From an uncultured Solirubrobacterales bacterium (GTDB taxonomy: Bacteria > Actinomycetota > Thermoleophilia > Solirubrobacterales > 70-9), in assembly GCA_903939845.1 (NCBI GenBank), contig CAJAIJ010000057.1, positions 172,129 to 236,128 on the forward strand: a stretch of DNA of 64,000 nt, in the 5' to 3' direction. Below, in pieces: positions 9,196 to 11,524 of the stretch. Positions within the stretch are counted from its first letter, which is position 1, and every line of letters starts with the position of its first letter. The notes beneath the pieces are model-generated. The model saw only the letters and a list, made by a program, of their open reading frames with translations. It searched no databases and was not told where the DNA came from. The position numbers were made by a program, and so were the translations under genes.

Positions 9196-10701
9196 TCAGG
9201 CCGAGAAGTCGTCCCTGAGGCCGGTGGCCGTGCGCCGGATCTCCTCCAGCTCGTCATCCTCGATCCGGTCCAGGTTCTTCATCTGCATCCACATCCGCCG
9301 GTTCGAGCCGAGGAGCTCCCTGTTTCGATCGAGGAAATCCCAGTACAGAACTGTGAGCGGGCAGGCGTCGGGTCCGGATCGCTCCTTCAGCGTGTATCGG
9401 CAATCGCGACAGTGGTTCGACATCCTGTCCACATAGCGGCCAGACGCCGCATACGGCTTGGTCATCATCTTCCCGCCATCGGCCCAGAGCGCCATCCCGG
9501 CGACGTTCGGGACCATCACCCACTCGAAGCCATCAATGAAGGACGAGTGGAACCAGTCCGTTGCAGCCTTCGGTTCCACTCCGAGAGTGAGAAACAGGTT
9601 TCCGAGCACCATCAGCCTCTCGATGTGGTGGGCGTAGGCGGTGTCCCTGATCCCTCCGATCACGTCACCCAGACACCGCATCTCGGTGGCGGATGGATCG
9701 AGTCCAGAGATCGCGGCCGGGACGGGGCGATCGGCGGCAAGGGCGTTCTCCTCCTTCATCCCGGCCCCCCTCAACCGGTAGACGCCCCATACGTACTCCC
9801 TCCACCCGATCACCTGTCGAACGAACCCCTCGACCGAGGCGATCGGGGCATTGCCCTTCCGGTACTCGGCCTCGGCCGCCTCGGCGCACTCCAGAGGGGA
9901 GAGCAGTCCGAGATTCAGTGAACTCGACAGCAGGGCGTGCCACATGAACCTCTCGCCGCCGATCATCGCGTCCTGGTAGGGGCCGAAGGTCGGGAGGCGA
10001 TCCCGGCAGAAGGACCGGAGCGCCTGAAGCGCCTGCTTCCTTGTCGCCGGGAAGATCCTGGTGCCGTCCTCACCGGAAGTCTCGAGGCCGGCCGCCTCCA
10101 TCCGGTCGAGATCGGCCCGAACGGCTTCATCCGTCTCGTCCTCCCTCGGCCGGTAGGGCTTCGGTGGCCGGATGTCGGCTGGCGGCGGTTTGCGATTCTC
10201 GGGATCGAAATTCCAGGCCCCGCCAGCCGGCTCCTTCCCGTCCATCAGCAGCCCGAAGCGGCGACGCTGCTCCCGGTAGAAATCCTCCATCCTGAGGGTC
10301 TTTCGTCCCGATGCCCAATCGGCAAAACGGGACGGTTCGGTGAGAAACAGGGTCTCGTCCACTATTTCGACCACTGGGTCGAGGCCGGCAAGCCGCTCCC
10401 CGGCCCCGAGGCGATTCGGTTCGAGAATCGCGACGGATTCAGGTTCGTACTCAGCCAGGTGGGAGGCAAGCCCGGCGGCAAGGCTCTCGGAGCGTCGATA
10501 GTCGACTTCCACCCCCCGCTCCCGCATCCCGTCCGCGAAGTTCCTCATCGCGGTGAAGACGAGGTGGAGTTTCTGGCGATGGAAGGAGAGGCCGCCGGGA
10601 CGGACGGCCGCCTCGACCATCAGGACCCTGTCGGCACCCCGCAGGGCCGGGTTTTCGAAGGAAAGCTGGTCGGCAAGGACCCAGGCGGTCCTGCCGGGCA
10701 T
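9196..10701 (-). CDS. phrB: Iron-sulfur photolyase/cryptochrome (bacterial (6-4)/CryPro, PhrB-like; deoxyribodipyrimidine photolyase-related protein)
   Basis: 501 aa; WVLADQLSFENPAL; cysteines C343, C431, C434, C447 (CxxC-x12-C in HCRDCRYTLKERSGPDACP; 88 residues between C343 and C431) match the Fe-S ligand spacing I recall for Agrobacterium PhrB (C350/C438/C441/C454). Confidence 0.9.
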   Translation of the reverse strand: MPGRTAWVLADQLSFENPALRGADRVLMVEAAVRPGGLSFHRQKLHLVFTAMRNFADGMRERGVEVDYRRSESLAAGLASHLAEYEPESVAILEPNRLGAGERLAGLDPVVEIVDETLFLTEPSRFADWASGRKTLRMEDFYREQRRRFGLLMDGKEPAGGAWNFDPENRKPPPADIRPPKPYRPREDETDEAVRADLDRMEAAGLETSGEDGTRIFPATRKQALQALRSFCRDRLPTFGPYQDAMIGGERFMWHALLSSSLNLGLLSPLECAEAAEAEYRKGNAPIASVEGFVRQVIGWREYVWGVYRLRGAGMKEENALAADRPVPAAISGLDPSATEMRCLGDVIGGIRDTAYAHHIERLMVLGNLFLTLGVEPKAATDWFHSSFIDGFEWVMVPNVAGMALWADGGKMMTKPYAASGRYVDRMSNHCRDCRYTLKERSGPDACPLTVLYWDFLDRNRELLGSNRRMWMQMKNLDRIEDDELEEIRRTATGLRDDFSA

Positions 10702-10705
10702 CGAC

Positions 10706-11524
10706 TCAGGCGCCCGCCAGGGCGCCTGCGTAGACCTGCCACGCGAGAACCGTCTTCGCCACGAAACTCAGGACGATGTAGGCCAGCTCGACGAACAGCG
10801 GATTACGCCATCGTCCCTTGCCCCTGTATCCGAGCCACATGTTCACCGCGAATCCGTTGAACAGGATGAACAGGGAGATGAAGATCCCGTAGACGAAGCC
10901 CGGAACCCCGTCGCCCTCACCCTGAGAGAGCGCGAGCTGGACGACGATCCCGATCCAGGGGACGGCCCCGATGATGCATCCGTAGATGAAGGGAACCCAG
11001 TCGGTCTGCTGACGGCCGAGGTTGACCTTTTCCATCACCAGGCCGAAGAGGATCATCGCCGCATTGGCACCGAACATCATCAGGAGTGCGACCAGATCAC
11101 TGACTCCGGCCAGCATCGCGATCAGGACGACCATGATCGAGGCGCTGATGGAGTACTCGATCCACCGGGTCGGGTTGACCCCCTCGGAGACATTCCCCTC
11201 GTACTGGCGCCTGTAGAAGGTCGCGACGACGAAGTGGTCGACGGCCGCAAGGCCCAGGAATATCGCGACCATCAGGTCGATCCTCAGACCGAACAGCTCC
11301 TTGGTGCCATACAGGCCGGAACCGGGGGCATCGAGAAGGAAGGAGCCGTTGACCGGAAGGCTCGCCGGACCGGCGAGAATCAGGATGGCGACGACCTGTG
11401 CGGCGAAGAAGATGGCAGCGATGACGTTCAGCCGCCTGAGACGCCTCAGGCGGCCGGCGTCCGGACCTGCGGTTGACTCTTCCGACCCCCCATCCGCAAC
11501 GGAGGGTTGAACCGTAGATTCCAT
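10706..11524 (-). CDS. Heliorhodopsin
   Basis: 272 aa, seven hydrophobic segments; RWIEYSISASIMVVLIA (Glu counterion region) and C-terminal YIVLSFVAKTVLAWQVYAG with the Schiff-base Lys context; ILFNGFAVNMWLGYRGKGRWRNPLFVELAYI is typical of the family. Confidence 0.9.
   Translation of the reverse strand: MESTVQPSVADGGSEESTAGPDAGRLRRLRRLNVIAAIFFAAQVVAILILAGPASLPVNGSFLLDAPGSGLYGTKELFGLRIDLMVAIFLGLAAVDHFVVATFYRRQYEGNVSEGVNPTRWIEYSISASIMVVLIAMLAGVSDLVALLMMFGANAAMILFGLVMEKVNLGRQQTDWVPFIYGCIIGAVPWIGIVVQLALSQGEGDGVPGFVYGIFISLFILFNGFAVNMWLGYRGKGRWRNPLFVELAYIVLSFVAKTVLAWQVYAGALAGA
10707..10728 (-). promoter_or_regulatory. Hairpin at heliorhodopsin 3' end / photolyase translation-initiation region
   Basis: CAGGCGCCC-GCCA-GGGCGCCTG: perfect 9-bp stem, 4-nt loop, ending 5 nt before the photolyase ATG. 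Confidence 0.5.

Follow-up and report, generated by a model that had tools for sequence, protein, structure and literature searches.

Introduction

The cellular role of heliorhodopsins (HeRs) is an open question. In the closest described system, the Trichococcus heliorhodopsin TfHeR is reported to bind a class II CPD photolyase with a KD of about 22 µM, to raise the activity of the enzyme about threefold, and to extend that activity to green light. TfHeR residues R162 and K227 are reported as essential, and the evidence comes from ITC, mutants, and repair assays (PMC9769723). This pair is the sole laboratory-tested link between an HeR and a photolyase, and it covers a single genus and a single enzyme class. 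Gene-context studies point to further associations. In PMC11109279, photolyases make up one of ten recurring groups of HeR operon partners, and PMC8612252 places photolyases beside zinc-finger HeRs of archaea. A photolyase also adjoins HeRs in UBA5794 (PMC12008989). An FeS-BCP, or prokaryotic (6-4) photolyase, is not named as an HeR partner in the available text of PMC11109279 or PMC8612252.

Here we describe an HeR gene next to an FeS-BCP gene in a window of 64,000 nucleotides, the whole stretch of DNA that was analyzed, from an uncultured member of the Solirubrobacterales. A sequence-only reading of this window had pointed to reports of an HeR-photolyase tie in another bacterium, and the Trichococcus system bears this out.

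A heliorhodopsin gene and an FeS-BCP photolyase gene lie 4 nt apart

Three genes follow one another on the minus strand of the window. The HeR gene (11524 to 10706) is separated by 4 nt (10705 to 10702) from the photolyase gene (10701 to 9196), and after a further 111 nt there is a trpB2-type gene (9084 to 7723; TIGR01415 / PRK12391). The sequence-only reading had placed the first two genes at these coordinates, on the same strand as each other and with this spacing. All of this was borne out, and both ORFs are genuine by Pfam profile.

The 272-aa HeR product matches Pfam PF18761 with 285 bits (cut-off, 26.7) over positions 1 to 242 of the 242-position profile, and it matches NCBIfam NF038020 with 278 bits (cut-off, 100). 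When aligned to the 48C12 heliorhodopsin (6su3), it has the equivalents of four residues: the retinal Schiff-base lysine of TM7 is K257 (48C12 K241), the counter-ion glutamate of TM3 is E123 (E107), and H97 and S253 correspond to H80 and S237. The motifs RWIEYSISAS and FVAKTVLAWQVYAG, which had been singled out as hallmarks, are both present. Judged by its sequence, the protein is a genuine heliorhodopsin with the key residues kept. It differs from 48C12 in having a longer N terminus and a Phe in place of H23, and Phe is found at this position in 10 of the 10 HeRs compared from its genus and sister genus. No retinal-forming oxygenase, either Blh (PF15461) or RPE65-type (PF03055), was found in the 92% complete genome of the window or in the other genomes with a linked pair, so retinal would need uptake or another, unrecognized route. 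Elsewhere in the phylum, Blh profile matches were present in 6 of the 59 other HeR genomes tested, with 53 lacking Blh.

The 501-aa photolyase product scores 181 bits against PF04244 (cut-off, 22.1). Its best solved relatives are 9hnk (E value, 4e-124), RsCryB (3zxs), and PhrB (4dja), and 8ijy was also found; these solved FeS-BCP photolyases and cryptochromes match over the whole length. As the sequence-only reading had noted, the four Fe-S cysteines have the PhrB spacing (C343, C431, C434, and C447, equivalent to PhrB C350, C438, C441, and C454). H358-H359, L363, M403, and Y417 correspond to PhrB His365-His366, Leu370, Met410, and Tyr424, and W383 and Y423 to Trp390 and Tyr430. In this mapping the Fe-S cysteines, the His-His pair, and the equivalents of Leu370, Trp390, Tyr424, and Tyr430 are shared with PhrB of Agrobacterium, CryB of Rhodobacter, and the Caulobacter and Synechococcus prokaryotic (6-4) photolyases, whereas PhrB Tyr391 is replaced by Phe. 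We know of no HeR partner for the characterized PhrB/CryB-type proteins. In PhrB, His366 is reported to be essential for repair, and Trp342 and Trp390 to be electron carriers in photoreduction (PMC4619345).

Only half of this Trp342-Trp390 pair is found in the window photolyase: Trp390 is kept as W383, but Trp342 is replaced by a non-aromatic residue and a three-residue insertion (motif LDP) stands there. The chain is conserved in most FeS-BCPs but is not strictly defining. The replacement and insertion are common to all five HeR-linked photolyases (window 9196 to 10701; L026, L030, L032, and L034). A missing Trp342 might have indicated that the enzyme depends on the HeR, but we rejected this idea, because many FeS-BCPs of the class that are unlinked to an HeR also lack this residue. 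Its absence thus characterizes many actinobacterial FeS-BCPs. On sequence grounds, the product is a genuine FeS-BCP-type photolyase with the key residues kept, except for Trp342. The genome of the window also carries a class I-type photolyase (PF03441) on another contig.

The tight pair is confined to one genus

The sequence-only reading proposed a neighborhood survey for conserved adjacency. We examined 60 relatives along with the genome of the window itself; of these 61 genomes, 14 carried an HeR and 9 carried an FeS-BCP. All four FeS-BCP genomes of the window's genus (G000, G007, G008, and G016) have the FeS-BCP gene 4 to 5 nt behind the HeR gene. The gap is 4 nt in the window, G016, and G007 and 5 nt in G008. 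These four related species have protein identities of 67 to 75%, and they amount to about three independent lineages because G007 and G016 are near-identical. Just one genome of the sister genus (G024) has both genes; they are separated by 2.1 kb, which include an opposite-strand gene and, by eye, a GST-like gene.

Across the class and phylum the picture is different. Of 399 genomes sampled from the class, 36 had both genes, which were adjacent in 3 of the 36 and apart in 32, on other contigs or with hundreds of kilobases between them; no lineages but those above had the genes close together. In the phylum outside the class, for which 80 of 98 genomes were taken, 30 of the 80 HeR-bearing genomes had an FeS-BCP, and none of the 30 had it adjacent, the nearest being about 20 kb away. 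In total, 62 other genomes sampled in class and phylum have both genes apart, although the fragmentation of many of the assemblies could have hidden a few adjacent pairs at contig ends. Conserved adjacency thus held within one genus, loosened in the sister genus, and was not seen elsewhere in the class and phylum samples. We therefore rejected a broad conservation of the pair. The two genes do co-occur in the class above expectation (36/105 versus 28/294; Fisher P = 2e-8, uncorrected for shared ancestry or habitat).

We also looked for other photolyases beside HeR genes (PF03441 in the 61 relatives and PF00875 in the 80 phylum genomes) and set this candidate aside with a single case, G552. There, an HeR gene and a same-strand MerR-like regulator gene are convergent with a class I-type photolyase gene (L084, 3344 to 6340), the MerR-like gene lying between HeR and photolyase, and form another HeR light-gene cluster. 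Unlinked HeR genes within the window's genus have other neighbors by eye. Downstream are a TerC-like membrane protein gene in G001 (L024, 7986 to 9803) and monooxygenase-like and alpha/beta-hydrolase-like genes in G017 (L028, 3075 to 5086). TerC and alpha/beta hydrolase are among the HeR partner groups named in PMC11109279.

The photolyase was probably lost from the locus in one relative

In the photolyase tree, the linked enzymes form one clade (support, 100/99) inside the FeS-BCPs of the family. In the HeR tree, the linked species are interspersed with G017, G004, and G005, which have no photolyase. In G004, trpB2 directly follows the HeR gene and the photolyase is missing between them (L031, 7890 to 7995, minus strand). 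This locus keeps the TAGACT element of trpB2, and the sequence ATGCCGGG, which overlaps the HeR stop codon, resembles a photolyase start and looks like a remnant. The simplest reading of these features is that the photolyase was lost from the locus while the HeR was retained. The missing photolyase genes of G005 and G017 could be due in part to incomplete assemblies, although in both the HeR lies elsewhere and its locus was seen without a photolyase.

In the linked lineages trpB2 is conserved next to the photolyase, for no evident reason, and in G024 it is about 1 kb away. This adjacency is conserved almost as well as that of the HeR, so location by itself cannot mark the HeR as the partner of the photolyase. 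The flanks upstream of the HeR gene vary between species while the pair persists. In the window, a thioredoxin-like AhpC/TSA gene follows trpB2 (the two together, 7135 to 9084).

Expression signals suggest a leaderless two-gene message

Of eight related HeR genes, linked or unlinked, seven carry a TANNNT element that ends 7 to 9 nt ahead of the start codon (window and L024 to L034). In the window it is TACGCT (11532 to 11537, minus strand), a -10-like element 7 nt upstream of the HeR ATG. TANNNT has a background of about 0.0007 per position across the window, and the computed chance of the recurrence is 1e-12 or less, a figure that is indicative only because the pattern was picked after inspection. 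In actinobacteria, leaderless promoters are built in this way, with a TANNNT shortly before the start codon. The placement of the element points to leaderless transcripts for the HeR genes of this family. A scan for sigma-70 and terminator consensus sequences found nothing.

No Shine-Dalgarno sequence precedes the photolyase start in any linked species. The energies there are -2.1 to -5.3, compared with a random mean of -3.9 and with -6.6 to -11.6 for trpB2. The Shine-Dalgarno sequence of trpB2 is strong in the four genomes scored, and a TAGACT or TAAACT element of its own was found in all five related loci inspected (TAGACT at 9144 to 9149, minus strand, in the window). Taken together, the HeR element, the photolyase start lacking a Shine-Dalgarno sequence, and the separate signals of trpB2 suggest that a transcript probably starts at the HeR gene, that photolyase translation is probably coupled to the HeR stop codon, and that trpB2 is probably transcribed separately. 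The HeR and photolyase genes likely make up one leaderless bicistronic message. Co-transcription, which the sequence-only reading had considered almost certain, is well supported at the level of sequence. Both genes have dN/dS values of 0.16 to 0.28, indicative of purifying selection.

Discussion

We consider it somewhat more probable than not that the two genes form a light-response unit whose joint expression is the selected trait. In this scenario, a leaderless transcript would begin at the HeR start codon, and translation of the FeS-BCP gene, which lacks a ribosome-binding site, would be coupled to the end of the HeR frame. The enzyme would most likely be a (6-4) photolyase that complements the class I photolyase from another contig of the genome, and the heliorhodopsin would serve as the light sensor in the membrane of that cell. 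The advantage would most likely be that light sensor and photorepair enzyme are expressed jointly in a sunlit habitat. The reading draws on the family identities of the proteins, the constant tight gap, the TANNNT element, the absent photolyase Shine-Dalgarno sequence, the separate promoter-like element of trpB2, purifying selection on both genes, the single photolyase clade, and the co-occurrence in the class. From these we infer the joint transcript, the translational coupling, the (6-4) specificity, and the functional benefit. Several observations weigh against it, namely, the trpB2 adjacency, the loss in G004, the HeR loci of G005 and G017 that lack a photolyase, the opposite-strand gene in G024, the null promoter scan, and the number of independent cases, about three.

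The sequence-only reading went further and suggested that the HeR tunes or anchors the enzyme. By analogy, direct tuning of the photolyase by the HeR in a membrane-coupled repair module is possible. In its strongest form, the cytoplasmic loops of the HeR would bind the FeS-BCP and raise its activity or extend it to green light, as for TfHeR. We think such a physical photorepair complex unlikely here. The precedent in Trichococcus, with its ITC, mutants, and repair assays (PMC9769723), the recurrence of photolyase operons among the HeR groups of PMC11109279, and the predicted tight co-expression of the window pair would all fit a complex, and the D-E and F-G cytoplasmic loops contain basic residues, where TfHeR R162 and K227 presumably lie. 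However, we rejected a residue signature peculiar to linked HeRs, since these loops are alike in linked and unlinked proteins and G79 is the only position that separates the two sets. The G004 HeR also persists after the photolyase loss, and the genome yielded no Blh or RPE65-type oxygenase to form retinal. Moreover, FeS-BCPs differ from class II CPD photolyases, and an interface cannot be assumed for that reason.

Neutral lineage-specific synteny, in which the photolyase landed once between the HeR gene and trpB2 and stayed there by descent with no functional coupling, would account for linkage in one clade only, for the separation in 32 of 36 class genomes and in all 30 phylum genomes with both genes that were sampled beyond the class, for the secondary losses, and for the equal retention of trpB2, but we judge it quite improbable, because a constant 4- to 5-nt gap lacking a Shine-Dalgarno sequence is unexpected for an idle junction at 67 to 75% protein identity, and because the pair stays while the HeR upstream flanks differ among species.

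Comparison with known systems

That HeRs associate with photolyases was known as a general type; what sets this case apart as a variant is its FeS-BCP partner and its lineage-bound conservation. A second independent lineage with a different photolyase class offers a clean comparative test of whether photorepair is a target of HeRs, and G004, with its natural loss of the photolyase and its HeR kept in place, is a ready-made control. It is a long shot that HeRs acquired photolyase partners repeatedly, drawing on unrelated classes, class II CPD in Trichococcus and FeS-BCP (6-4) here. If they did, the tuning of DNA photorepair by a membrane retinal protein would be a general arrangement that arose by convergence, and the rhodopsin described here would act on an enzyme without the usual outer tryptophan of the photoreduction chain.

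The window pair resembles the HeRs of the operon groups of PMC11109279 and the gene-context survey of PMC8612252, which lie beside recurrent and varied partners that include photolyase. It is closest to the TfHeR/TfPHR operon of Trichococcus flocculiformis. In both, the HeR and photolyase genes form one operon, by prediction in the window, and lie on one strand within 10 bp of each other (4 nt here). However, the Trichococcus partner is a class II CPD photolyase and its operon includes a DUF2238 gene, whereas the window partner is a PF04244 FeS-BCP. The two systems belong to different phyla, and the interaction tested in Trichococcus is a possibility in the window pair.
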